From: a virus
Virus record (IMG/VR): IMGVR_UViG_3300024967_000008
Span: 1-24,067 of that record
Reading direction: 5' to 3' (one strand)
Length of the DNA: 24,067 nt
Shown: piece after piece, positions 6,053 to 23,279 of the stretch
Numbering within the stretch: the stretch's first letter is position 1
How the letters are laid out: the number at the start of each line of letters is the position of its first letter
Translations under genes and position numbers: made by a program
Notes under the pieces: generated by a model
Database searches by the model: none
The model's input: only the letters and a program-made list of their open reading frames with translations
What the model was told of the DNA's origin: nothing

Positions 6053-7234
6053 CTAACTGCGTAAAACGGTAATGTACTGGTCAATACCATTGACGGTGCG
6101 GAATAATGCCGCGCCTTCGTTGGCCTTGCCTATGGTGTAACGGTCTAGGGTTAAATCAATGATTGTGCCGCCGCTGATGCCAACCACAATACCGGCGTGT
6201 GAAGTCCATACTGGCACGCTTTGTTTTGCTACATTGTCCAAGCCCTTGACCTGATTACTGGAAACATAAGTCAATGTACCTTTGACGACACCGACATTGG
6301 CTTTGGTGATTAACTGCATCTGATCCGGCTGCGTACCGGCTAAAAAGTAAGTTTCGGTTTCTGTACCGACAAACAAGCCGTCCTGTACCGGTGCAATCAT
6401 GGTAATGGCACTGGTAAAGCCAAAGTAATCGCGTAAATCAAACAGTTCGTAACCAAAGCCTTTTGAGTAAAATAGCCACTGGTTCTGTGCAACATACATT
6501 CGGCCTTGAAAATAACGGACTAACTGTCCGGATGGCGCGTGCTGGCAGAATTGGGTATCTAACGGGGTGCGCACTATGCCGCCATTGTAATTAGCGCTCG
6601 TTGTTTCGTTCGCCAATACCAATGCACGATATAACACCTCGCCATTCGCTTCTGTCAGGTAAATAACCTTGTGGGTCACTGTCGGATCAGGCGATACCGG
6701 TATATCACTAAATGTGATTGCGCCTGTTGTAATCTCGATTTTGTCTGCGATTCCCGTACCTGATTCCTGCCCGTCCTCGCGCAAATACGTTAAAGCATAC
6801 TGATAAGTACCGGCAAACATATCGCCATAAGCAGCGGTTGCCAATGGTTGAAATACTGGCGGCACAATGCCCCATGTGCGATTGCCGTTACTGGTATAAA
6901 TGCCGGTCTGCGTGCCGTTGCTGTAATAAATCTTACTGTCCACCTCGTCATAACTCATGACAAGGCCACTGCTTAAATCGCTGCGTACCGTCACGCTACC
7001 GACTAAATCGCTGTTCAAACGTTTCAGGTTTGCGCCTTGCACATACAGGCAAATATCGCCATGCGCCCATAATGAATGCACGGCAGCGGTAATTTTCTTC
7101 ACATAACCGTCACGGCTCAATAGCTTGCCGCTATTGTCCAGATTGACATTGGTTGCGACTTCTAAATCTGCAGGCGCAAAGCGTTCTGCGCTTACATCAT
7201 TGCGTAAGCCTGCAAATGCTTTGAAGTCAGCCAT
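6053..7234 (-). CDS. Beta-rich phage head-completion or tail-hub protein
   Basis: This 393-aa protein begins MADFKAFAGLRNDVSAERFA. The next segment, NVNLDNSGKLLSRDGYVKKI, followed by HSLWAHGD, is a pattern I associate with phage structural proteins near the portal vertex. Repeated short blades (YFLAGTQPDQMQ, GLFVGTETETYF, WLFYSKGFGYELF) suggest a beta-propeller. By architecture and gene order it could play the part of P22 gp10, which helps seal the packaged head, but I cannot show sequence homology. The ATG overlaps the stop of the adaptor gene (TAATG), indicating translational coupling, with GGGG just upstream as ribosome site. Two tandem terminators follow its stop. Confidence 0.78.
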   Translation of the reverse strand: MADFKAFAGLRNDVSAERFAPADLEVATNVNLDNSGKLLSRDGYVKKITAAVHSLWAHGDICLYVQGANLKRLNSDLVGSVTVRSDLSSGLVMSYDEVDSKIYYSNGTQTGIYTSNGNRTWGIVPPVFQPLATAAYGDMFAGTYQYALTYLREDGQESGTGIADKIEITTGAITFSDIPVSPDPTVTHKVIYLTEANGEVLYRALVLANETTSANYNGGIVRTPLDTQFCQHAPSGQLVRYFQGRMYVAQNQWLFYSKGFGYELFDLRDYFGFTSAITMIAPVQDGLFVGTETETYFLAGTQPDQMQLITKANVGVVKGTLTYVSSNQVKGLDNVAKQSVPVWTSHAGIVVGISGGTIIDLTLDRYTIGKANEGAALFRTVNGIDQYITVLRS

Positions 7235-7896
7235 TAATACACCCCATTAAAGTCATCGCCCATCTGTTCGCGTGCAATCCATTCTTCATCCACGGCAGAA
7301 CTGCGTTTGCCAAAGACTGATTCAAATAAGGCCAGATTCTTCATTGCCTTATCTTCATTCATGGTTTCTGTGTCTTGCTTCATGTAAGCACGGTGCATGA
7401 TCCAGTAGCGTAAATTGCGGTGAAAGCGTGCATGGATTTCCGGTGTATCGTCCATTGCATTCATATCGGTCAATGGCATACGGATGACTGTCAGATTCAG
7501 CGTGTCATTGACTAATGGTTTAGGATATAAACGGATTTTGCCGGTTTCATAGTCGGTCACAAACAATTGCGGCGTACCGGTTTCTGTTTCCCATCCGACC
7601 ACGGCATTATCCAAGTCACGCATCTGCGCACGGCCTAACTTCATATCGTCTAGTGCTAACTTGGCACGGCGAATGAATACGACACGGCTATCCAGCGTCA
7701 GCAACGGATTACCGGCAGTCACCGCAATCTGGGTCACTGCCGATGTGGTGGAATCAATCAATAAGCGTGCGCGAATACTGGCTTCGTTCTCGGCATCTAC
7801 GGCATATTCAATGAGTTCTTCATCTGACCATAGATTTTTACCAGTTGCATCATCCAGTTCATTGCGTACCAGTTCAATGATTTCGCGCAAGGTCAT
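7234..7896 (-). CDS. Phage head-tail adaptor protein
   Basis: This 220-aa protein has a helical N-terminus (MTLREIIELVRNELDDATGK) followed by LWSDEELIEYAVDAENEAS, a pattern typical of small phage adaptor or head-completion proteins that bind the portal ring. The middle is beta-rich with PQLFVTDYETGKIRLYPKP, and the C-terminus is again helical (NLRYWIMHRAYMKQD). From established knowledge, adaptors such as P22 gp4 form a ring below the portal. I assign the role from length, fold pattern and position between capsid and tail genes. The start lies two bases after the upstream stop and lacks a strong ribosome site, so it is probably coupled. Its stop overlaps the next ATG. Confidence 0.8.
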   Translation of the reverse strand: MTLREIIELVRNELDDATGKNLWSDEELIEYAVDAENEASIRARLLIDSTTSAVTQIAVTAGNPLLTLDSRVVFIRRAKLALDDMKLGRAQMRDLDNAVVGWETETGTPQLFVTDYETGKIRLYPKPLVNDTLNLTVIRMPLTDMNAMDDTPEIHARFHRNLRYWIMHRAYMKQDTETMNEDKAMKNLALFESVFGKRSSAVDEEWIAREQMGDDFNGVY

Positions 7897-7898
7897 GA

Positions 7899-8207
7899 TT
7901 ATTTACCGCCTGATAATGCTGCCAATTCATCTTCGGTCATGCCTGCTGCAGTTTCCGCATTGGTTTTTTCCGGCGCTACTTGTGCATCTGCAACAACTTC
8001 CGGTTCTGGTTCTTTTTCAACCACTGCGCCTGCTACCGGATTGCCGTCAAGGTCAACCTGATTGCCGTTAATGTCAAACAGGTCATCGCCTTGCTGGAAT
8101 TTAACCGCACCGCCGCCAATGACTTCATAAAAGGTTTTGCTACGGTCTAGTGTGCCGCTACTGACTACCGGTTTTTCTGCTTTGTCTGCTGGTTGTTTAC
8201 GTGCCAT
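7899..8207 (-). CDS. Small acidic phage protein, unknown function
   Basis: This 102-aa protein is unrecognised. It starts MARKQPADKAEKPVVSSG. It has a short folded-looking segment around KTFYEVIGGGAVKFQQGDDL and then NGNQVDLDGNPVAG, followed by an acidic Glu/Pro/Ala-rich tail that ends TEDELAALSGGK. I chose the ATG at 8207 because GGAG lies upstream, although 11 bases away. An in-frame ATG at 8243 overlaps the stop of the preceding gene (TAATG) and would add 12 residues; it has no ribosome site of its own but could work by coupling. It ends two bases before the adaptor start. Small proteins of this kind near the adaptor are often head-associated, but no function can be read here. Confidence 0.7.
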   Translation of the reverse strand: MARKQPADKAEKPVVSSGTLDRSKTFYEVIGGGAVKFQQGDDLFDINGNQVDLDGNPVAGAVVEKEPEPEVVADAQVAPEKTNAETAAGMTEDELAALSGGK

Positions 8208-8242
8208 GATGTTCATTACTCCGTGAGATTGATAAGTCAACA

Positions 8243-8452
8243 TTAGTCATCAGCATCAGGACGTGAATCGCTGTCTGATTCATGTGCCGCATCGCTCTGT
8301 GTGCTGGATTTGATACTGCCGCCATTGTCATATCCTTGCTGTAGGTTGCTGCCGTAAGTATCGGTAACGCCAGTATTCACGCCGCGATCAGGCATGGCCT
8401 TGTCATCGCCACGTACTACGCCAGAACCATCGTTTCTTGGAAAATTTTTCAT
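8243..8452 (-). CDS. Small polar, probably disordered phage protein
   Basis: This 69-aa protein starts at MKNFPRNDGSGVVRGDD with AAGGAG eight bases upstream. A longer frame with 10 more residues exists but would place the ribosome site inside the gene, so I reject it. The sequence is rich in Gly, Asp and Ser, ends in a Ser/Asp-rich stretch, and shows no hydrophobic core, so it is probably unstructured. No family is recognised. It is one of three consecutive short polar genes between the glycosyltransferase fusion and the adaptor. Confidence 0.65.
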   Translation of the reverse strand: MKNFPRNDGSGVVRGDDKAMPDRGVNTGVTDTYGSNLQQGYDNGGSIKSSTQSDAAHESDSDSRPDADD

Positions 8453-8467
8453 TGCATCACTCCTTAA

Positions 8468-8479
8468 ATGTATATACAT
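8468..8479. promoter_or_regulatory. 12-base perfect palindrome upstream of a small gene
   Basis: ATGTATATACAT is an exact palindrome in the 36-base gap between two small genes, a few bases before the AAGGAG site of the downstream gene. It contains TATATA, so it could be part of a -10 element, an operator, or chance in an A+T-rich gap. No convincing -35 box is seen. Confidence 0.2.
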
Positions 8480-8488
8480 CAAAATAAA

Positions 8489-8701
8489 TTAGCGTTCCCA
8501 ACCTTCTGGGCGACCAACAAAGCCGCCTTCTTTTGGTTTTTCTGTCATCATCGGCATATCCCATTCGCGTTTTTCCACGGCTGGCTGTTCTGGAATAAAG
8601 CCTTTTTGCAGGTCAGTCATACTTGCACCGCCTAATGCACCATTAGTGCCGCCGGTCATGCCTGCATTAGATTGTGTCAATGTGTCTTTATCGTTTTTCA
8701 T
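8489..8701 (-). CDS. Small phage protein, unknown function
   Basis: This 70-aa protein begins MKNDKDTLTQSNAGMTGGTN. It has a Gly-rich first half and a Pro/Glu/Lys-rich second half containing KREWDMPMM and ending GRPEGWER. No family is recognised and no membrane segment is seen. The ATG overlaps the stop of the upstream methyltransferase/glycosyltransferase gene as ATGA, and AGAAGGA lies upstream, so it is translated as part of the same unit. The composition suggests a flexible protein. Confidence 0.65.
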   Translation of the reverse strand: MKNDKDTLTQSNAGMTGGTNGALGGASMTDLQKGFIPEQPAVEKREWDMPMMTEKPKEGGFVGRPEGWER

Positions 8702-10233
8702 GCGAGTATTCCTTCTAGGTTATAAAAAGCGTTCATCACCTGATCAACGCTGATATTAGCCTGGCACAAGGCCACGCCGGACGTACCATATTGCGTACAG
8801 GTGTCGAATGAGTAGTGCATCTGGTGGCATGGGTAACATGGTGTATGTTCAGGTTCTAGCGCAATCGTATTTTCCCAATCACGGGTCAGGTTATGTGCTG
8901 AACTGTGTGATAACAATACAATCTTGCCGTTTGGTTCAAACGCTACGGCATTGAGTAGGCCAGTTTCCGATCCGATTACCATATCCGCGACCTGTGCGAA
9001 TGCCATTGATTCGCGCATTGTCCACGCACCGGCACGCTTCACCACTCTAGTTTCGCCTTCCCATCCTTGCTGTAGCATGATTTCATCCTTGCCGCCGACC
9101 AGCACCACTTTTAAATCAGGATATTGCAACAATAGTTTGGCAATCACTTCATCCATCCACGGATAAACTTTGTGAATAGCTGACCCGGATAATGACCATA
9201 AAACAACATAACCGCCTAAGACTTCATACTGTTTCTTAGCCCATGCTATTTCGTCATCAGTCGCATAAAATAATTGGTCATGCGTTGCGTGATTCAAATC
9301 GGCTATATCGTGTTGGAACTGTAAATAGTTGCAGTCTAAATACTTGTGGCGCATTTCCTGCGACCAGTTGAATTGTGTCGTATTTGGCAAGGCCAATAAA
9401 CTACGCTCTACCGATTCAGAAAGGTTCACAAACTTGTCATACTTTTTGGCAAGGTGCGCCCAAAACTGGCCTAATTCATGGTTTGGCACTTGGTCATTGC
9501 CTTGCACCACGAACTTATCTATATGCGGATCATGCTTGGTCACTTCATAACCCTGTGCTGCGGTATAGAATGTGACGTGATAGCCTAGTCGTTTTAGTCC
9601 GGCAATCACACTGGATGCCTGAATTGCATCACCGAAAGCGCCATAGCGGACGACTGCGGCTTTTAATCTAGCCTGTTTAGATAATTCAATGACTTTACTA
9701 AAGTCACCTTTACCTTGACCACCTTTTTTATAAACCTGAAAAAAGCTATATTCATTACCGGCATTGCGTTCTTCATTAACTAACAAAGACCAGTTACCAG
9801 TAAGTTTTAGCATAGCCTTTTTAATATCTACCGGCATAAAGTCGTTTTTATGATCTGGGTTAGCGCCAGGCTGTCCAATATTCGGGTAATACTCTTTATG
9901 CGGCAGGTACAGGATTAAATAGCCGCCATGTTTAATCACGCGCCACCATTCTTTCAGTGCCGCCTCGTAATCAGAAATATGTTCAAGCAAATGCGAACTA
10001 AAAATGAAGTCCATGCTGTTATCAGCAAAAATGCTCAAATCCTCGCAAGTATCTACCATTACATCGACACCCTGCTTGCCCCAATGATGCCCGTTATCGA
10101 CACCGATAAAATGCGGAAAGGTTTTGAATAGACCGCAACCTAAATCGAGGCCACGTCCTGCGGTGTATTCCACAATATCCCATTTCACTTTTGCAGCTTC
10201 ATTGCCCTGCGGTGAATTTATATCCCAGACCAT
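8698..10233 (-). CDS. Methyltransferase / GT9-like glycosyltransferase fusion
   Basis: This 511-aa protein has two enzyme-like halves. Residues about 20-170 form a class I SAM-dependent methyltransferase: LDLGCG (29-34) is the SAM-binding loop, IGVDN follows, and SSHLLEHI (79-86) and WWRVIKHGGYLILYLP match the type-11 family pattern. After a Gly-rich linker (GGQGKG, 171-176) comes a GT9/heptosyltransferase-like half. VVRYGAFGDAIQASSVIAGL (194-213) resembles the N-terminal donor/acceptor loop, and VIGSETGLLNAVAFEPNGK (419-437) the family's nucleotide-sugar site. A cysteine cluster, CYPC...DTC, lies at 466-479. It starts two bases after the TylF-type gene. The target could be a virion protein, a glycan or a host surface sugar. 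The substrate is unknown. Confidence 0.82.
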   Translation of the reverse strand: MVWDINSPQGNEAAKVKWDIVEYTAGRGLDLGCGLFKTFPHFIGVDNGHHWGKQGVDVMVDTCEDLSIFADNSMDFIFSSHLLEHISDYEAALKEWWRVIKHGGYLILYLPHKEYYPNIGQPGANPDHKNDFMPVDIKKAMLKLTGNWSLLVNEERNAGNEYSFFQVYKKGGQGKGDFSKVIELSKQARLKAAVVRYGAFGDAIQASSVIAGLKRLGYHVTFYTAAQGYEVTKHDPHIDKFVVQGNDQVPNHELGQFWAHLAKKYDKFVNLSESVERSLLALPNTTQFNWSQEMRHKYLDCNYLQFQHDIADLNHATHDQLFYATDDEIAWAKKQYEVLGGYVVLWSLSGSAIHKVYPWMDEVIAKLLLQYPDLKVVLVGGKDEIMLQQGWEGETRVVKRAGAWTMRESMAFAQVADMVIGSETGLLNAVAFEPNGKIVLLSHSSAHNLTRDWENTIALEPEHTPCYPCHQMHYSFDTCTQYGTSGVALCQANISVDQVMNAFYNLEGILA

Positions 10234-10235
10234 GA

Positions 10236-10763
10236 TTAGAACCTCACCATTGCTTTAGCGTACTGGTCAGTGACCACCCTGTCACCAAAGGCTTCATCTA
10301 CTGCCCTATTCGCGGCAGGTAGGCAATTATAATCATCGAACCACATCACGCCGCCTGCGACCATTAACGGGCTGAATAGGCGTATGGCGCTGGCATAGCT
10401 TTGATACTGGTCTGCGTCTATGTGTAAAAATGCTATGTTCGGTAAACTTTCCGGCATGGTGTCTGGAAAAATCCCCACATGAAACACGGCGCTTGGAATC
10501 AGATCGCGCACGGCCTGTTCATTAGTATCGGCAAAGTCACCGACTAAGTGACTATCCCCATCCTGCCGGTACGGAATACCGGTAAACGTATCGAATAAAT
10601 GTAATTCTCTATGCTGTGCGCTTGCAACTTCTGCCAGTTTTAGCGCAGAACCGCCACGATATACACCAAACTCCACAAAGATACCTTCCGGTGTCTGTGC
10701 TGCCACTGCGCACATTTGCGCTATGGTGTTAGGGTCAATTAAAGAATTAGAGTTATGCGACAT
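10236..10763 (-). CDS. TylF-type class I SAM-dependent methyltransferase
   Basis: This 175-aa protein matches the pattern of the TylF/MycF (macrocin O-methyltransferase) family. FVEFGVYRGGSALKLAE (29-45) is the SAM-binding loop, LHLFDTFTGIP (54-64) the second motif, FLHIDADQYQSYASAI (112-127) holds the metal-binding acidic residues, and GGVMWFDDYN (137-146) is the conserved WFDDY segment. Family members usually O-methylate sugars and need a divalent metal. At 175 residues it is shorter than many members and lacks a lid extension. AAGGA precedes the ATG, and a terminator hairpin lies just upstream. It is followed two bases later by the methyltransferase/GT9 fusion, so the two likely act on one glycan. 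That link is inference. Confidence 0.85.
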   Translation of the reverse strand: MSHNSNSLIDPNTIAQMCAVAAQTPEGIFVEFGVYRGGSALKLAEVASAQHRELHLFDTFTGIPYRQDGDSHLVGDFADTNEQAVRDLIPSAVFHVGIFPDTMPESLPNIAFLHIDADQYQSYASAIRLFSPLMVAGGVMWFDDYNCLPAANRAVDEAFGDRVVTDQYAKAMVRF

Positions 10764-10773
10764 ACGAATCCTT

Positions 10774-10800
10774 AAAATAAGGGGCGTAATTGCCCCTTAT
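10774..10800 (-). terminator. Strong hairpin, probable bidirectional terminator
   Basis: A perfect 9-base stem, ATAAGGGGC with GCCCCTTAT, closes a 6-base loop. On the minus strand it is followed by TTTT, which adds to the T bases at the end of the stem; on the plus strand CTTTT follows. It lies between the small beta-rich head gene and the TylF-type gene, ending about 10 bases before the start codon of the latter, so only the ribosome site AAGGA fits in between. Confidence 0.8.
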
Positions 10801-10818: not shown

Positions 10819-11202
10819 TTAAGCTGTCAAGTCTGCACCGGCTACCACGTAAGTTTCTACTGCCACTGATGTTGCCTGTGTTGCGTCAGTGCCATGTGCC
10901 ACCCAGAACTGATCACCTTGCGCCAGGGTAATATCCAGCGCATTGTTTTTAGGTGTAATGGCTGCAGAAGTAATTGCAGACAAGGTTGCCGTTGCGGTTG
11001 CTGTACCGCTCTTAGTGTAAAGCAACGGTTGAGTAGCGGAAGTGCCAGCTACATTAGGCACAACGGTTACAGATTTAATTTTCTGCGCTGTGAAAGCCGC
11101 AAACTTTTCAGAAACGCCATTTGCGCCTGCTGCAATACCAGATGAATAAACAACCGGTACTTGGTAGGCCGCATGGTCGTAGGCTTTGTTTTTTACTGTC
11201 AT
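10819..11202 (-). CDS. Small beta-rich head protein, possible capsid decoration
   Basis: This 127-aa protein starts MTVKNKAYDHAAYQVPVVYS with AAAGGAAA upstream. It is rich in Ala, Thr and Val, with alternating residues typical of a beta sandwich (KIKSVTVVPNVAG, NALDITLAQGDQFWV). No enzyme or membrane feature is present. It lies directly after the major capsid gene, separated by a UUCG terminator. A small beta-rich gene in this place is often a capsid decoration or head-stabilising protein. That role is inferred from position and fold pattern; the family is not recognised. Confidence 0.7.
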   Translation of the reverse strand: MTVKNKAYDHAAYQVPVVYSSGIAAGANGVSEKFAAFTAQKIKSVTVVPNVAGTSATQPLLYTKSGTATATATLSAITSAAITPKNNALDITLAQGDQFWVAHGTDATQATSVAVETYVVAGADLTA

Positions 11203-11280: not shown

Positions 11281-11302
11281 AAAAAACCGCCCGAAGGCGG
11301 TT
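11281..11302 (-). terminator. Terminator with cUUCGg tetraloop after major capsid gene
   Basis: On the minus strand AACCGCC-TTCG-GGCGGTT is followed by TTTT. The loop is the unusually stable C(UUCG)G tetraloop. It begins six bases after the major capsid stop and would limit read-through, or protect the 3' end of the abundant capsid message. Confidence 0.9.
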
Positions 11303-11307
11303 AATTA

Positions 11308-12255
11308 CTAAGAGATTGAACCCCATTTCACGATACGGGCTTGTGCTGCTTCGGTATGCACCAGACCGAAGCCACCAAGGTAGTACCATGCCACGCCTTT
11401 TGAGCGACCATAATCAGAAGGGATTTTGCCGCGGATTTCTTCCGGTACAGCAATACCTTCTGCAACGGTATCTTCACCGAAGAAGTACGCCCAATTTGAC
11501 AAGCCATTTGACCAAGTTTCCTTGGCAATATTGGTTTGCTCAACGAAGCGCACGCCTTCATAGCGACCAATCTCACCGTTCATGATCATGGTGAAGCCGG
11601 TTTCAACGTATTGATGTACGGCTTCCAAATCATTTTTAACAGTGCGGAAGGTTGATGGATGACCAAGTGCAAAGTAATCATCGTTTTGGTAAGGTGGAAT
11701 GTTGCGTTCCTTCATTACGTCCACGATCGCTTTGATGTGGTTTTTACCCATCGCTACGTTGTTGACGCCTGGCGCTGTGCCGTTAGTTGCCAAAGTCACG
11801 GCAGTTGTTGAGTTGCCTGATGTTGGTGTTACCACCAATGGGGTCAAGTCAAACTGCGCGTGTGCAGCAGTATCGAATGCTTTTTTAGCATCGTTTTTCA
11901 GCACTTTGTTGATCACTTCTTTCACTGGATGCTCTGACAAGTCATCCAATTTGCCGCTATAAGGCACGCTATTACCGTATTCTGTAATAGTCAAAGTACC
12001 TTGAGTGATCGTGAAGTTGGTTTCAGGCATAGTTTCAGTTTCAGTCAATGCGCCACCTTGAGTAGCTACATCGCTGTAAACGTTCCAATGGAACTTGTCG
12101 CCCTTGCCTTTACCTTGTTGTGTTGCGTCTTTTGCATCGCAAAATTGACGGAATTTCACCATTGGTTGTACGGCATTGCGCAAAACCTTTGATAAATTGA
12201 GTGAGTACATATACCCACCAAGGGTATTCGTACCCCATACTTGTTGACCTGCCAT
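11308..12255 (-). CDS. Major capsid protein, N4-gp56 family type
   Basis: This 315-aa protein forms the capsid shell. It starts MAGQQVWGTN with GGAG eight bases before the ATG. The segment SKVLRNAVQPMVKFRQFCDA (22-41), then FHWNVYSDVATQGG, TETETMPETN, ITQGTLTITEYGN and YSGKLDDLSEHPVKEVI match the pattern I know from the N4-gp56 group of HK97-fold capsid proteins. The length is that of a compact member without a large insertion. It follows the scaffold gene and precedes a UUCG terminator, the usual setting for the most highly expressed late gene. The call rests on the N-terminal pattern, length and gene order together. Confidence 0.92.
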   Translation of the reverse strand: MAGQQVWGTNTLGGYMYSLNLSKVLRNAVQPMVKFRQFCDAKDATQQGKGKGDKFHWNVYSDVATQGGALTETETMPETNFTITQGTLTITEYGNSVPYSGKLDDLSEHPVKEVINKVLKNDAKKAFDTAAHAQFDLTPLVVTPTSGNSTTAVTLATNGTAPGVNNVAMGKNHIKAIVDVMKERNIPPYQNDDYFALGHPSTFRTVKNDLEAVHQYVETGFTMIMNGEIGRYEGVRFVEQTNIAKETWSNGLSNWAYFFGEDTVAEGIAVPEEIRGKIPSDYGRSKGVAWYYLGGFGLVHTEAAQARIVKWGSIS

Positions 12256-13306: not shown

Positions 13307-13597
13307 TTATTCGTTTCTGCTCATTTGGTCTAGTTGTTCTTCACTGGATTGGCCTACAATCAAGGCTTCCTGCAGCCATAATTCAAAGTTTTCTGAACGG
13401 GCGATAATGCTTTGCAAGGTTCTAATGCGCTCGGTCTGTGTCGGGTCTATGCCTTTCAGTTCACCAATGGCTTGAATGGCATCATCTGCGGCACGCCCTA
13501 ACAGGTATTTACCCAAGTCAGAATTAAAGAAGGCTTCAACATCAAAGCCCAAAGCGATTTTCTTTTGAATCTCGTTTAGTTCCTGTTGGTTATTCAT
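13307..13597 (-). CDS. Small helical phage protein between portal and scaffold
   Basis: This 96-aa protein starts MNNQQELNEIQKKIALGFDV. It is mostly helical by composition and contains the segment FFNSDLGKYLLGRAADDAIQ. No enzyme motif, signal peptide or membrane segment is seen, and I do not name a family. Its ATG overlaps the portal stop as ATGA, so it is translationally coupled to the portal. A terminator lies between it and the scaffold gene. A role in portal or head assembly is possible from position only. Confidence 0.75.
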   Translation of the reverse strand: MNNQQELNEIQKKIALGFDVEAFFNSDLGKYLLGRAADDAIQAIGELKGIDPTQTERIRTLQSIIARSENFELWLQEALIVGQSSEEQLDQMSRNE

Positions 13598-16428
13598 CTG
13601 CGTTTGGTTTCCATTGAAGTATCAGGTGGTGGTTGCAAGGCTTCGTGTAAAGCATTGGTTGCCGGTGTTGATACCGCTTCCTGTACTTTCTGCTGAAAGG
13701 TCTTTTTAGGTTGTTTTGGCTGTGCGGCTTCACGTTGTTGGCGCTCTTGTTCTGCCGCACGCGCTTTTGCACCGGTCATCAGTTCATGCAGGCCATCTTT
13801 AAGGCCTTGCACAATGCCGCCATCTGCAAATTGCTGTACACCTTCTGCTTCTGGCGCTTCTTCACCGCCTTGCATCTGTCTAAGCAGTAAGCCTAGTTCA
13901 TTCAGTTTATTCAGCGTATCTTCACCAAGTAAGGCCATTGCCTCTACGTTCAGCACGCCTTCGCCTGCGGTTGCCATAACCGGTACATTATCAGCGGTAG
14001 TGGTTGGGCTTACGCCTTGCACCGCACCACCATCCGCTTTGGCCTGTAATGGATTAGCGTATTGCTGTTCTTGCTGCAGGTGTAATTGCTGCGCAAAAGT
14101 ATCGGCATTCATTGGATTGTCAAATTTGCCTAAGTGCTGACCGGTCTTAACGTATTGCTGAATTGCCGCATCGTTATCGAGAATGCCGCTACCATCGCTA
14201 GCTACGGTTGGAATCAGCACTTCATACTGACCATCATTGAAACTCATGCTGCGTACTGTGCTGATAGAACCATCTGCATTCTTCACAATCGGGCGGTTAT
14301 TGAGGTCGATATTGCCAGGCTCAACAATGCCACCATCAGCTAACGCCTGCACCCCATCGGCTTCTGCTGTTTCAATGCCGGTCATCGGGCTAGTGGGCAC
14401 GGCTGGCTGTAATGGTGACGTGTTCTGGTTAATATCAGGCATTGGCGTACCCATTGCATTAGCCGGTACGTCTGTGGCTTGCACGCCGTCACCGGCAATC
14501 GGTGTCCAGCCTGCGCCTTTCAACACTTCATCAGCTACCGGTGCAACGGCTGGTGTTGCCGCTACAATCTGACCTGTTTGCATAGCGCTGAACTGTGTTT
14601 CCACGTTCTTGCTGACTTTCTGTGACTTGATATAGTCGGCTTCTGCCAGTAGTTTCGCTACGGTTGCATCACGCACTGCCGGATCAAGTTTCGCATCAAG
14701 TGCAGCCTGTAATTCCTGCAGTTTTTGTTCCATTTCAGCCACGCGAGGATCGCCATCATTCGCAGTAAAGAAGCGTTGACCGTCCTTGTAACCCAATTTA
14801 CCGAAGATTTCTTTGGTAATTTCCTCGATATTGACGCGATTACCGACACCAGACACCACAATTTCAGCCAGGGTGCGCATCCCCATCGTAAAGCGCTCGA
14901 ACTGTGCCTGCGGATTAGTAGAACCGACACCCACATTGACGCGCACCAGCATATTGCGCATGAGCATTTCATCGGTAATGTCGGCAATACCGTATTTTTC
15001 GTACAGTTTCGCCTTCGTTCCGGCAAAAATCAGGATGGTTTCATCAGTTTCATACTGTTGTTCCAGCATCACTAACTGTGTAATGACCTTTTCTGCCCAT
15101 GTTTCCACGAAGGTACGCAGTTGATACTCACTGATCTCGTTGGCGCTCTCGCTTAACAGGTTCATACCGCCTACGGTTTCATTCAGTTTGCGGTTAGACT
15201 GCACGCTTGAACCATTGAATGCACCGGCTAAGTCATCAAAGTCTAGGTTTAATCTATCCTGTTCCTGATAGCTAGAACTTGTCACGTCCGGCGTGTCTAA
15301 AACCTTCACGTCATCAATATCGTTCATCAAAGTGACGGATGACGGTACGTTTCTGGTCAGGCTGCGAATATCGACCTGCGCATTACGCTTGGCAAAGTAA
15401 CGTTTATTCATCGCAAACTTGACGTTATCAATACGCTGGTTGGCAATCTCGTTGATTTCAACCTGTAAATCATGCACCAATTCCACCGGCGCACTGGTAT
15501 AGACCTTATGCGATTCAATCAGGGCGCTACCCAATGCAAACGGGCGCTTGCCGTGCCAATACTGCTCGGATAATGGTACTGGCTTACTTAATACGTGTTC
15601 TGTGCCTAATGTGTAGTAGATATAGTCAATGCCATCGTCCTCGATCACATTGCAATGCACCCATACAATCTTGTATTCGCTTACATCGGTGTTGTTGTCA
15701 GTCGGATCAGTGCGGTTACTACCCTGGCGCGTCTGTCTGATGCTGTCATTACTCTGCTTGCTGCCTGCCATGATCTCGCTATCAGTCAATGGCTTCCATT
15801 TAGGCGCACCGGTCTTTTCATCCAGTGTCGTCATGCGTGCTTTTACGTCTTTGTAGTACATTGGAATCATCCACACCAGATACGGGCTGGTATTGATGGG
15901 GTCTGTCCAATCGGCTGCAGGGTCAAATCGGAAGTTCTCAATCGGGATTAGTTCAACACATGGCTGGTCGATACCGCGCTTTGCGTCATATTTCCAGTAT
16001 TGATGGGAAATCACCACGCCGGAAGTCATCGCGTCCTGATATGCACCAATCACAATCTGAAACCACGGAATAGTCTTGGTCAAACGATACTGCACCAGTT
16101 CCGCAATAATCTCTGAACTGGCTAAGTGTTTCGGGTCTGCGTCATTCTCTGCGGTGATAGACACCACGTCCTCATTGGAAAAGAATGCGGCAGCGGCAAT
16201 AGCTTCATTTTTGCGCACCATCGTCCGTGTTTTAGGACGAAATAGCTTACTGCGGCCTTTATACGAATCAGAATGGTATTTTGAGTTAGCAGGATGCTTA
16301 CCTTGCACTTGGCGCAGGTTAGCCTCGACTTGACTGCGGATATTGCTGTCAAAGTAACTGGTTGAACCGTCAAAGGCATCCCTCGCGCGTTTCAGCCATA
16401 TATCCTGTTTAATCTCTTGTTCAGCCAT
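13594..16428 (-). CDS. Large phage portal protein with C-terminal ADGG-repeat extension
   Basis: This 944-aa protein forms the ring through which DNA enters and leaves the head. The N-terminal part (SYKGRSKLFRPKTRTMVRKN, FFSNEDVVSITAENDADPKH) and the following mixed core to about residue 560 have the pattern of large P22/N4-like portals. A helical stretch covers about 560-610. The last 250 residues are unlike an ordinary portal. There are three ADGG motifs (near 697, 798 and 866), a module beginning NIDLNNRPIVKNADGSIST and reaching GKFDNPMNADTF (about 702-775), and NVPVMATAGEGVLNVEAM, then a basic tail. From memory these motifs are commoner in phage internal or ejection proteins. It starts two bases after the preceding stop and ends overlapping the next ATG. 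Confidence 0.88.
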   Translation of the reverse strand: MAEQEIKQDIWLKRARDAFDGSTSYFDSNIRSQVEANLRQVQGKHPANSKYHSDSYKGRSKLFRPKTRTMVRKNEAIAAAAFFSNEDVVSITAENDADPKHLASSEIIAELVQYRLTKTIPWFQIVIGAYQDAMTSGVVISHQYWKYDAKRGIDQPCVELIPIENFRFDPAADWTDPINTSPYLVWMIPMYYKDVKARMTTLDEKTGAPKWKPLTDSEIMAGSKQSNDSIRQTRQGSNRTDPTDNNTDVSEYKIVWVHCNVIEDDGIDYIYYTLGTEHVLSKPVPLSEQYWHGKRPFALGSALIESHKVYTSAPVELVHDLQVEINEIANQRIDNVKFAMNKRYFAKRNAQVDIRSLTRNVPSSVTLMNDIDDVKVLDTPDVTSSSYQEQDRLNLDFDDLAGAFNGSSVQSNRKLNETVGGMNLLSESANEISEYQLRTFVETWAEKVITQLVMLEQQYETDETILIFAGTKAKLYEKYGIADITDEMLMRNMLVRVNVGVGSTNPQAQFERFTMGMRTLAEIVVSGVGNRVNIEEITKEIFGKLGYKDGQRFFTANDGDPRVAEMEQKLQELQAALDAKLDPAVRDATVAKLLAEADYIKSQKVSKNVETQFSAMQTGQIVAATPAVAPVADEVLKGAGWTPIAGDGVQATDVPANAMGTPMPDINQNTSPLQPAVPTSPMTGIETAEADGVQALADGGIVEPGNIDLNNRPIVKNADGSISTVRSMSFNDGQYEVLIPTVASDGSGILDNDAAIQQYVKTGQHLGKFDNPMNADTFAQQLHLQQEQQYANPLQAKADGGAVQGVSPTTTADNVPVMATAGEGVLNVEAMALLGEDTLNKLNELGLLLRQMQGGEEAPEAEGVQQFADGGIVQGLKDGLHELMTGAKARAAEQERQQREAAQPKQPKKTFQQKVQEAVSTPATNALHEALQPPPDTSMETKRR

Positions 16429-19160: not shown

Positions 19161-19465
19161 ATCAGGTCTTTTTCCCAATACCCCTGCTTGCCATCACCGG
19201 CATTGGCACTGATCTTGGCCTTATACTTTGCATTCTCGGTCAAGGTCATGGTGTCCAGCAAAGTGGTACGGTACAAGCCATCACTGCCGGTTACATAGGT
19301 CATGGTCTTTGGAAAGGTATCGCCTGCCACCGCAATGCCTGCACTGTCAACCAGAGTTACGGTAACGCTTGCGTCATTCACATTTGCACCGGTCGTTTCA
19401 TTGGTGAGGTCTGATAGTTCCAGCACCATATCATTGCCTTTGTATAAAACGGCGACTTCACTCAT
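19142..19465 (-). CDS. Small beta-rich phage structural protein
   Basis: This 107-aa protein starts MSEVAVLYKGNDMVLELSDL. It has the alternating pattern of an Ig-like beta sandwich: NDASVTVTLVDSAGIAVAGD and then YVTGSDGLYRTTLLDTMTL. It ends WEKDLICKIRK. I recall similar short proteins next to fibre genes in other phages, but I do not name the family. The ATG overlaps the stop of the 763-aa repeat gene as ATGA, with AAGGAAA upstream, and the end overlaps the terminase start. It may attach to or cap the fibre-like protein before it. That is inference. Confidence 0.75.
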   Translation of the reverse strand: MSEVAVLYKGNDMVLELSDLTNETTGANVNDASVTVTLVDSAGIAVAGDTFPKTMTYVTGSDGLYRTTLLDTMTLTENAKYKAKISANAGDGKQGYWEKDLICKIRK

Positions 19466-21753
19466 GATGTAAATTTCCTTGTCGTTGGTGAGCGCGACCT
19501 TAATGCGGCGTTGATGCTCGGTTGTCCTTGTATGGCTGGCAGTGCGTTAAACTCAACATGATCAACAGCGGTTTTTAACAATATCTTGCCAAGCAGCATT
19601 TCTACTGGCGCGGCAGCGCTAAATCCACCACCAATGACACCAGATGATCCTTGTGATGCAAATATAGAATTTGCAACGGATTTTGCGTAAACGTCTGCCG
19701 CCGCAATCGCGGCACTGGCTGCAATCGCAGCGCTGGTGCTGATGGCACTGGCGCTTGCGGCTGATGAAGATTGGCTGGCTGCGACCGCATTAAATATGGC
19801 GCGGCCTGAACCGTTTGCGGTACTTGTAGCACTACTATCGCCGGTGGTTTGTTTGACCGCAACGCCGGTTGCTACCGCTGCCGCTGTACCAGTGGCATTC
19901 GCAATAGCGGCATAAGAGCCATTCGGAACGCTGTCTGCACTTGAAGAACCGGATGCTTGAGCGGTGGCGGCACTGATGCTGGCACTTGCCACGCTATCTG
20001 CCGCACTACCGGCGCTGGTAGACACGCCATCGAACAATGCTTTGCCTGTGGCGCTAACCGCCGCTACGCCGCTTGCTGCCGCGATTCCAGTCACACCACT
20101 GCTGGTAACGCCACTAACAGTGCTTGTTCCGGATGCGCTGCCGACCATATCTTTCAAAGCGTTAGATACAGACAGTGCGCTACCAATTCCGGCGGCACTG
20201 GCCTGCGCTGGCAATAATGCCGTGCTGATAGCGGCTGCATTGACTGTGCCGCTACTTTCTGCGACCGCTTTAACATCAACACGGGCTATCACGGCATCGG
20301 TAGCCACACCATTGGCAGCGCCTACGCTGTTACTTACTGCACTACTACCGGCATCGGCGGTTGATACACTCGCACTTGCACCAACGCCAGGCTTTGCAGC
20401 CGTACCGCTTGCGGCGGCGGTTGCTGATCCACTGGCTGATGCAATGGCTGTACCGGCTGTGCTGTTGCCAACACCGGAAACAGCGGCTGCACCTGATGCG
20501 GCGGCTATGGCATTGGCAATACTGGTGCTAGTGGTTGCGGCGGTAGATACGCCAGCGCTACTTGCGACACCATTAAACAATGTTCTTGCAATCACATTGT
20601 CGCTTGCCACACCGGAGCTATTCGCCGCAGCATTGATCAGCGCATTGCCGACCACGCTTGATGCGGCAACGCCTGCGCCATCAGCCACGCTATTTGCAAA
20701 CGATTTGCCTACCACACCACTAGCGGCAACACCACTAGCTGCGCCAACAACATTGAACAACGCCGCTCCGGTAGCCTGCACACTTGATGTGCCACTGGCT
20801 GCAGCAATATTTTCAACGATGCTATAACTACCGGTCGCGCTTGCCGTTGACGTACCGACACCTGACCCAATCCCTTTGTATGGATTTTGCCGGATAACTT
20901 CCGCTACCAGTTGCGTTAAACGTGCATTGGATGGCGTTTTCCGCACCACCTCGGCTACCAGTTGCGTTAAACGTGCATTGGTGACGGGAGAAAGTCCGGT
21001 CACGGTTGCCGCAGCGGATGCTGACGCAACAGATAGCGCCAGGGATTTGCCGGTTGCGGTGGCAGTCACAGAGCCGGAAGATGATCCGCTGGCAGATGAT
21101 GTGATCTTGGTTTCAAACTCAACAATCATTGCACCGAAAGCGGTGGCAGAGGTGCTCCCCCAGGTTACTGTTGTACCAGTAAACCCACTGTTACGGGTCG
21201 CATACTCCATGCTGGTTGTAGGCGTAGAATATTGCGCCCCCGTGAAGTCTATCTGTTCCGTCCAGCCAGATGGCTCGGTTAGACTGGCACTGGTTGCTGC
21301 ATTCCCAACCAAAGCAATGGTTGGATTATCGGTTTCTACTGCCGCATCAAACACCACGCTTGGGGTTGTTGATGCTGACTGATTTGCAGATACTTTAAAC
21401 TGCTTGATGGCACTTGTACCAGTAAACGGCATACCAGAGATGCGTAACACAGCCACCACTGCACCCGTTGCGGAATCGCCGGTGCAATCAAAGGTGCAAG
21501 TCTGACTGACTGCGCTGGCTAAACTATTGGCAACAAATACATACAGGGTGTCTGCGCTGCCGTTTTTGGCTACACTGCCAACCTTTGTGAACGTGATCCC
21601 GTTGCTATTCGATACCGATCCTGCGGCAACCGTACCGGAAGCGACCACCAGAACCACCAACAAATCATTGGCTACAGGAGTGAATGACCCCGTAGCATAA
21701 GATGAAGTGTTACTGGTGCTTGCCGTAACAATGGCATGGGTACAGGTCGCCAT
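19462..21753 (-). CDS. Ala/Ser/Gly-rich repetitive fibre-like virion protein
   Basis: This 763-aa protein starts MATCTHAIVTASTSNTSSYA with AAAGGGG upstream. Residues 1-215 form a beta-rich domain with two Cys near 85-90 (QTCTFDCTGD), ending AFGAMIVEFE. A tandem 17-residue repeat, ARLTQLVAEVVRK and ARLTQLVAEVIRQ, lies at about 258-291. Residues about 295-715 are low-complexity Ala/Ser/Gly/Val repeats of about 20-25 residues with a loose pattern ATGxAxFNxVxAASG. The end (720-763) is a normal mixed domain with EMLLGKILLKTAVDHVEF. The repeats suggest a long rod or fibre. Such sequence also yields long false frames on the other strand. A fibre or whisker role is likely but not proven. Confidence 0.82.
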   Translation of the reverse strand: MATCTHAIVTASTSNTSSYATGSFTPVANDLLVVLVVASGTVAAGSVSNSNGITFTKVGSVAKNGSADTLYVFVANSLASAVSQTCTFDCTGDSATGAVVAVLRISGMPFTGTSAIKQFKVSANQSASTTPSVVFDAAVETDNPTIALVGNAATSASLTEPSGWTEQIDFTGAQYSTPTTSMEYATRNSGFTGTTVTWGSTSATAFGAMIVEFETKITSSASGSSSGSVTATATGKSLALSVASASAAATVTGLSPVTNARLTQLVAEVVRKTPSNARLTQLVAEVIRQNPYKGIGSGVGTSTASATGSYSIVENIAAASGTSSVQATGAALFNVVGAASGVAASGVVGKSFANSVADGAGVAASSVVGNALINAAANSSGVASDNVIARTLFNGVASSAGVSTAATTSTSIANAIAAASGAAAVSGVGNSTAGTAIASASGSATAAASGTAAKPGVGASASVSTADAGSSAVSNSVGAANGVATDAVIARVDVKAVAESSGTVNAAAISTALLPAQASAAGIGSALSVSNALKDMVGSASGTSTVSGVTSSGVTGIAAASGVAAVSATGKALFDGVSTSAGSAADSVASASISAATAQASGSSSADSVPNGSYAAIANATGTAAAVATGVAVKQTTGDSSATSTANGSGRAIFNAVAASQSSSAASASAISTSAAIAASAAIAAADVYAKSVANSIFASQGSSGVIGGGFSAAAPVEMLLGKILLKTAVDHVEFNALPAIQGQPSINAALRSRSPTTRKFTS
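20880..20981 (-). repeat. 51-base tandem duplication inside the repeat protein gene
   Basis: Two copies with a period of 51 bases (17 codons) lie head to tail. A core of 28 bases is identical (20903-20930 and 20954-20981), and the rest differs by scattered changes. In protein the units read ARLTQLVAEVVRKTPSN and ARLTQLVAEVIRQNPYK. It keeps the frame and separates the N-terminal domain from the Ala-rich rod. Confidence 0.85.
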
Positions 21754-22850: not shown

Positions 22851-23279
22851 TTAATCTTCTGTGATAGTTGATGCGGTTGTCAGTTGTGGTGTAATGCCAT
22901 TGCCACACACAATGTTTGGTGTCACCGTGCCGGAATAAAGCAACACACCTGCGCCGGAAGATGCAACACCGACACCAAAGTGCGTTGCTGTACCAGAGCC
23001 GCCTGTGCCTGCAGGGAAACTAATCGCCGCAACCGGTGACACGCTGTTATTTGTGACCGTCCAGCCGCCGGTAGTACGTGCAACCGCTACACGGGCATAC
23101 GAGGTATATGCAATTTCATTGGTGGTCTGGTCGCCTGCTTCGCCTGGGTCAGAGGTATGCAATGACACATACAGATTGGTCGCCGGTGACGTGGCATCGT
23201 TTTCGGCTAAGTCTGCAATCGCGGTCGCGTTGAAAATCAGCTTCAACATGGAGTTTTCAAACGAGTTACTTTTACTCAT
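22851..23279 (-). CDS. Conserved phage structural protein, tail-fibre type
   Basis: This 142-aa protein starts MSKSNSFENSMLKLIFNATA with AAGGA upstream. It carries NLYVSLHTSDPGEAGDQTTN, then EIAYTSYARVAVARTTGGW and AISFPAGTGGSGTATHFGVG. From memory, this SLHT-DPG-...-TNE-Y-YARV pattern is frequent in small phage proteins annotated as tail fibre or head fibre. The sequence is beta-rich with no enzyme motif. It follows the small terminase gene after a terminator and leads the fibre-like gene group. Exact location in the virion is not known. Confidence 0.8.
   Translation of the reverse strand: MSKSNSFENSMLKLIFNATAIADLAENDATSPATNLYVSLHTSDPGEAGDQTTNEIAYTSYARVAVARTTGGWTVTNNSVSPVAAISFPAGTGGSGTATHFGVGVASSGAGVLLYSGTVTPNIVCGNGITPQLTTASTITED

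Follow-up and report, generated by a model that had tools for sequence, protein, structure and literature searches.

Head gene cluster of the window

The window, by which we mean the whole stretch of DNA analyzed, is a 24,067-base virus record and represents a fragment of a podovirus genome. Its main genes all lie on the minus strand, in the order terminase small and large subunits, SU10-type portal, scaffold-like protein, major capsid protein, g127, TylF methyltransferase, 511-aa fusion, three small proteins, SU10-type adaptor, and head-closure protein. We refer to the TylF and fusion genes as the cassette. The features of the region are as follows.

13594..16428, minus strand: SU10-type portal protein (PF23899, 2e-37)
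11308..12255, minus strand: major capsid protein (phrog_1357, E 4.4e-19)
11285..11302, minus strand: terminator-like hairpin immediately following the capsid gene (hairpin search)
10819..11202, minus strand: g127, Thr/Ala-rich, predicted jelly-roll capsid cement/turret-like protein and candidate acceptor (model pLDDT 90.9)
10777..10800, no strand assigned: terminator-like inverted repeat between g127 and the cassette (number of such repeats in the region not above chance)
10236..10763, minus strand: predicted TylF-family O-methyltransferase, 175 aa (PF05711, E 3.5e-17; 63 bits against a cut-off of 23)
8698..10233, minus strand: predicted 511-aa fused class I methyltransferase and GT9 glycosyltransferase (open reading frame coordinates exact; profile and structure searches)
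9709..10233, minus strand: methyltransferase domain of the fusion, residues 1 to 175, with the SAM motif GLDLGCG (Methyltransf_11, PF08241, E 2.2e-12)
8701..9675, minus strand: predicted GT9 (WaaF-type) domain of the fusion, residues 187 to 511, with D202, K355, E423-T-G, and a four-Cys C-terminal motif (C466/C469/C479/C490)
8489..8701, minus strand: g70, small conserved head-region protein (open reading frame list and comparison with relatives)
8243..8482, minus strand: g79, small conserved head-region protein (open reading frame list and comparison with relatives)
7899..8243, minus strand: g114, small protein preceding the adaptor, found also in cultured relatives that have no cassette
7234..7896, minus strand: SU10-type head-tail adaptor (PF24175, 1.6e-21)

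The gene models of g70 and g114 are loose, and the region has no more sigma-70-like promoters or terminators than shuffled sequence. A first-pass annotation of this DNA had described, between the capsid and adaptor genes, a TylF-type methyltransferase and a fused methyltransferase/heptosyltransferase-like enzyme, and it had left the GT9 half of the latter to stand or fall by profile and structure searches. Our results agree with that description. Genes matching phrog_1357 and PF24175 flank the pair, the TylF gene matches PF05711 at exact coordinates, the fusion matches PF08241, and its GT9 half was found both through the profiles of its relatives and by structure.

By capsid protein, the nearest cultured phages are of or near Xuquatrovirus. 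Among them is Vibrio phage 219E41.1, with 59.7% identity to the window capsid protein; identity to coliphages HelliStehle and Pondi is 54 to 55%. The two annotated relatives examined, 219E41.1 and HelliStehle, have no cassette between capsid and adaptor.

Further proteins are encoded between the terminase genes. One is an Ala/Ser-rich repetitive protein of 763 aa (19462-21753, minus strand), which has no Pfam match and no relative in any fetched locus and is possibly a fiber or adhesin-like insert. Its neighbors, g107 and g340, likewise have no relatives in the fetched loci. The other, a 142-aa protein (22851-23279, minus strand), matches the Podophage GP4 fiber I protein gp80 (PF23140, 2.1e-17).

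Predicted GT9 glycosyltransferase in the fusion protein

We built an AlphaFold model of the fusion on its aligned relatives (pLDDT 87.3, pTM 0.85). Methyltransferase structures matched residues ~3 to 173 of the model, and 3dli gave a Z score of 16.3 over residues 3 to 170. Residues 187 to 511 aligned with the GT9 structures 3tov (Z 24.4), WaaF 1psw (23.6), and WaaC (21.1), and with TibC (20.0). In the model, the GT-B fold of WaaC and WaaF extends across the full domain, with Z scores of 20.6 to 24.4 over 264 to 286 residues. A Pfam search with the window fusion protein gave no PF01075 match at E ≤ 1, short of the curated cut-off, and an NCBIfam search returned generic methyltransferase matches only. 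However, 9 of 18 aligned relatives matched PF01075 (Glyco_transf_9; best, 1.4e-6). Because of these matches and the structural ones, the GT9 assignment stands despite the failed direct search.

In profile alignments to 3tov and WaaF, the GD motif with its catalytic Asp corresponds to Asp202, the donor-binding Lys of KRWP to Lys355, and DSG to Glu423-Thr-Gly. D202, K355, E423, and Cys469 are invariant in 106 of 106 fusions, a set restricted to those having full-length capsid genes. The dN/dS ratio of the fusion against three close relatives is 0.07 to 0.11. We conclude that the C-terminal half is a predicted WaaF-type GT9 glycosyltransferase and, as judged by sequence comparison, that the fusion is under purifying selection with its catalytic residues intact.

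The GT9 domain occurs alone in some relatives (L015-L022), and the methyltransferase half is degenerate in two others (L014 and L023). In L014 (2987-7377), two GT9-like genes and a separate Methyltransf_23 gene accompany the fusion with the degenerate half. In another locus (L011, 5713-7605), the reading frame of the fusion enzyme runs on into a g114-like head-region protein (E 4.5e-16), which could be a tether of the enzyme to head assembly or a sequencing or start artifact. We rejected general tethering through g114, as this was the sole clear case among 157 and the other long open reading frames are mechanical extensions.

TylF-family methyltransferase

The nearest PDB relatives of the 175-aa protein are NovP and MycF, which are O-methyltransferases acting on antibiotic sugars. 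Its residues D116, D143, and D144 align with the NovP DxD and DDY aspartates, which we take to be metal ligands, and are unchanged in 23 of 23 homologues. The N-terminal part of the family profile (positions 1 to 84) is missing from this copy. The protein also weakly matches phrog_2675, which is labeled DNA methyltransferase. Against one relative, dN/dS is 0.05. On the alignment evidence, we regard the TylF protein as a predicted sugar O-methyltransferase.

The TylF gene was present in 22 of 152 loci, within about 130 bp of the fusion gene in 18 of the 22, and the near relatives L001 to L004 are without it. In L046 and L052, it lies about 7 kb upstream, ahead of the portal gene and away from the fusion.

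Conserved position and wide distribution

In 101 of 120 loci, or 101 of the 106 with room for it, the enzyme gene has the capsid gene upstream on its own strand, at a median distance of 1.4 kb. The remaining 19 loci included only 5 with at least 3 kb of upstream sequence, some near-duplicates were left in the set, and the open reading frames of the fetched loci were called mechanically. An arrangement that recurs in over 100 loci is not due to chance.

A protein-pattern scan of IMG/VR found at least 599 matching stretches, at least 521 of which encode relatives; as results of pattern scanning, both counts are minimum values. In GTDB genomes we found 25 loci, including some in Paraburkholderia isolates and some in bins of Polaromonas, Zoogloea, Accumulibacter, and Magnetococcales, bins that could contain mis-binned phage contigs. 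A tblastn search with three queries (the window protein and two other GT9 versions) against 50,697 phage records found no GT9 half; the sole match, at 26%, was to the methyltransferase half of the window fusion. The product of the fusion thus escaped notice because its GT9 half is absent from sequenced phage isolates.

A contig of Paraburkholderia rhynchosiae WSM 3937 (NZ_PNXY01000026; L212-L214, about 34 to 74 kb) carries the fusion gene, a complete head operon, and a DnaB-like helicase, and is apparently an integrated prophage of a cultured isolate. Paraburkholderia sp. C35 is a second strain with such a prophage. A tyrosine integrase is encoded by the two closest long relatives and by one Paraburkholderia relative, which makes a temperate lifestyle of the phage possible.

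An optional cassette in a slot of swapping sugar enzymes

As a control, we collected 80 IMG/VR loci by their capsid protein (capsid identity of at least 69%). Among the 60 with an adaptor gene or at least 6 kb downstream, 40 carry the fusion gene and one third do not. In L136 to L139, whose capsids are 77% identical, the adaptor gene lies 628 bp past the capsid gene and the cassette is absent, leaving a clean gap. This gap and the 40-of-60 carriage indicate that the slot is fixed and its occupation by the cassette optional. Distances between GT domains parallel those of capsid and portal (Mantel Spearman 0.60 and 0.66, respectively), whereas distances of the methyltransferase half parallel the capsid less well (0.30).

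Elsewhere the slot holds an FkbM methyltransferase (L012 and L103), a GT2 enzyme (L108), or single genes of the hexapeptide-transferase, PIG-L deacetylase, GFO/IDH/MocA oxidoreductase, and sulfotransferase families. By family assignment, the swapping slot genes are the expected content of a glycan-building locus. In the same slot beside the capsid gene, L051 (2269-5674) has genes for a GT4 protein and for a methyltransferase-GT4 fusion of independent origin; methyltransferase-glycosyltransferase fusion therefore arose more than once here. The capsid-to-enzyme interval of one subgroup is occupied by a 211-aa family with no Pfam match (L080, 1964-2596), often in two copies per locus (38 open reading frames in 24 loci).

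Candidate acceptor and donor

Directly upstream of the cassette, g127 encodes a protein of 127 aa that is rich in Thr (14.8%) and Ala (15.6%). In structure comparison its model scores highest with the HFTV1 turret and the KHP40 trimeric cement protein (Z 9.7); nucleoplasmins tie with these two, which leaves the fold no more than suggestive. g127 is common in the set anchored on the glycosyltransferase (90 loci). We rejected it as a universal acceptor, since a recognizable g127 is missing from 37 of 48 capsid-anchored loci that bear the enzyme, and an unrelated small protein takes its place in cultured relatives.

Six related phage contigs of 57 to 67 kb contained no sugar-nucleotide epimerase of PF01370, which we take to be the family of ADP-heptose epimerase; the donor therefore probably comes from the host. 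Several GT9 enzymes are present in each of the two Paraburkholderia host genomes.

Proposed function and rival explanations

We think it probable that the cassette provides late virion glycosylation with methyl capping, carried in the head operon. The GT9 half would take a sugar from a host nucleotide sugar during assembly, most plausibly ADP-heptose, which is favored because it is the substrate of characterized GT9 enzymes. The sugar would be moved onto a virion protein of the neighboring genes, for which the capsid protein and g127, with its predicted cement-like jelly-roll, are the candidates. O-methylation of the sugar by the fused methyltransferase, and by TylF where present, may follow and could cap it or change its recognition. 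Consistent with this proposal are the GT9 fold and family, the invariant catalytic residues, the low dN/dS, the place beside the capsid gene, the accessory behavior of the cassette, the sugar-enzyme swaps in its slot, the conserved TylF metal ligands and the closeness of TylF to the fusion gene, and codivergence of the glycosyltransferase with capsid and portal. The layout also has precedents in mycobacteriophages of clusters O and J and, by analogy, in chlorovirus PBCV-1. One feature expected of phage virion-glycosylation cassettes, a glycosyltransferase encoded in the head/tail operon, is present. The first-pass annotation had proposed synthesis and methylation of a glycan. Transfer and methylation is the best reading, but "synthesis" goes too far, because only these two activities are encoded as far as tested and the six long contigs have no PF01370 protein.

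The main rival is a change to the host surface. GT9 would put a methylated sugar on the LPS core, to block superinfection or to stop progeny from adhering to debris. A host-surface acceptor is possible because most characterized GT9 enzymes build the LPS core, and WaaC and WaaF are among the top structural matches. The integrase in three long relatives points the same way, as does a study of Pseudomonas aeruginosa prophages whose authors interpreted neighboring GT9 and methyltransferase genes as modifying DNA or O-antigen. These points, with the fact that g127 is not universal, count against a virion target. However, the conserved slot lies in the late operon, flanked by the capsid and adaptor genes and not by an integrase or repressor, and the composition of the cassette resembles that of virion-modifying cassettes in mycobacteriophages. 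We therefore judge the host-surface explanation unlikely. The first-pass view that this is not a host-conversion locus holds for its position, and it is weakened by the tyrosine integrase of the relatives, with which the phage may be temperate.

It is improbable, in our estimation, that the cassette is a passenger retained through recombination at a tolerant spot of the operon and has no consistent target. One third of capsid-matched relatives do without it, and TylF is gained or lost among near neighbors. Yet its low dN/dS, invariant catalytic residues, and codivergence with capsid and portal indicate that selection maintains the cassette and that it moves together with the head genes. Least probable is glycosylation and methylation of phage DNA against restriction. 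Phages do glycosylate DNA, and TylF has its weak match to phrog_2675, but the two methyltransferases each match families for small molecules and sugars, and the genes belong to the head operon, not to a replication region. GT9 is not known to be a DNA-modifying family. With no supporting feature, we rejected DNA modification.

A more specific form of virion glycosylation is tentative, and we hold it to be possible rather than probable: a large group of uncultured podoviruses may use a WaaF-type enzyme, captured and joined to a methyltransferase, to turn host ADP-heptose, the LPS-core donor, into a methylated heptose coat on the capsid or cement protein. Few phages, mainly of Mycobacterium, have been shown to glycosylate their virions with enzymes of their own. 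The fusion signature, built on an LPS-type enzyme, is widespread, from hundreds of IMG/VR stretches to prophages in cultured Paraburkholderia. If virion glycosylation is correct, the particles of phages of many Gram-negative hosts bear methylated sugars, with possible effects on adsorption, stability, predation, and immune recognition. Sequenced bacterial isolates with the prophage make the question testable.

Comparison with known systems

Like the LPS heptosyltransferases WaaF and WaaC (CAZy GT9, PF01075), the fusion has a GT-B fold over its whole C-terminal half, the GD Asp, the Lys, and D/E-x-G. It differs from them in its methyltransferase half, its place in a phage head operon, an identity of ~15%, and an invariant Glu instead of the DSG Asp. 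TibC and AAH, the BAHT enzymes, are GT-B heptosyltransferases that glycosylate protein and have four Cys residues, and the four-Cys motif of the fusion first resembled the TibC iron finger. The spacing is C-x2-C-x15-C-x11-C in TibC and C-x2-C-x9-C-x10-C in the fusion. TibC and AAH have an N-terminal beta-barrel where the fusion has a methyltransferase fold (residues 3 to 173), and no autotransporter partner was noticed among the open reading frames of the window. We rejected BAHT membership: a WaaF-type four-Cys tail occurs also in a Paraburkholderia host WaaF-type GT9 (CSPCFQRECPLGHLNC); because ordinary WaaF-type enzymes have this kind of motif, it is not diagnostic for BAHT and supports GT9 only.

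The P. aeruginosa prophages vB_PaeS-D14C/O/Q are alike by description: GT9 and a SAM-dependent methyltransferase are reported as adjacent but separate genes in siphovirus prophages. Mycobacteriophages of clusters O (Firecracker gp33-36) and J (Courthouse gp15) have, like the window, a TylF O-methyltransferase inside the head operon, followed in cluster O by glycosyltransferases. The cluster O enzymes are reported to modify the capsid and tail tube. These cassettes differ in that they use other glycosyltransferase families, encoded by separate genes, in actinobacterial siphoviruses. A fused plus a separate methyltransferase is found in chlorovirus PBCV-1, where A064R (a GT-GT-methyltransferase fusion) and A061L complete a methylated capsid glycan. 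PBCV-1 is an analogy only, being a eukaryotic virus with rhamnosyltransferases, an N-glycan, and the GT-GT-methyltransferase order. If present, a methylated-heptose coat would give phages of Gram-negative hosts their equivalent of the capsid glycosylation of chloroviruses and mycobacteriophages, and hundreds of environmental phages would share it.
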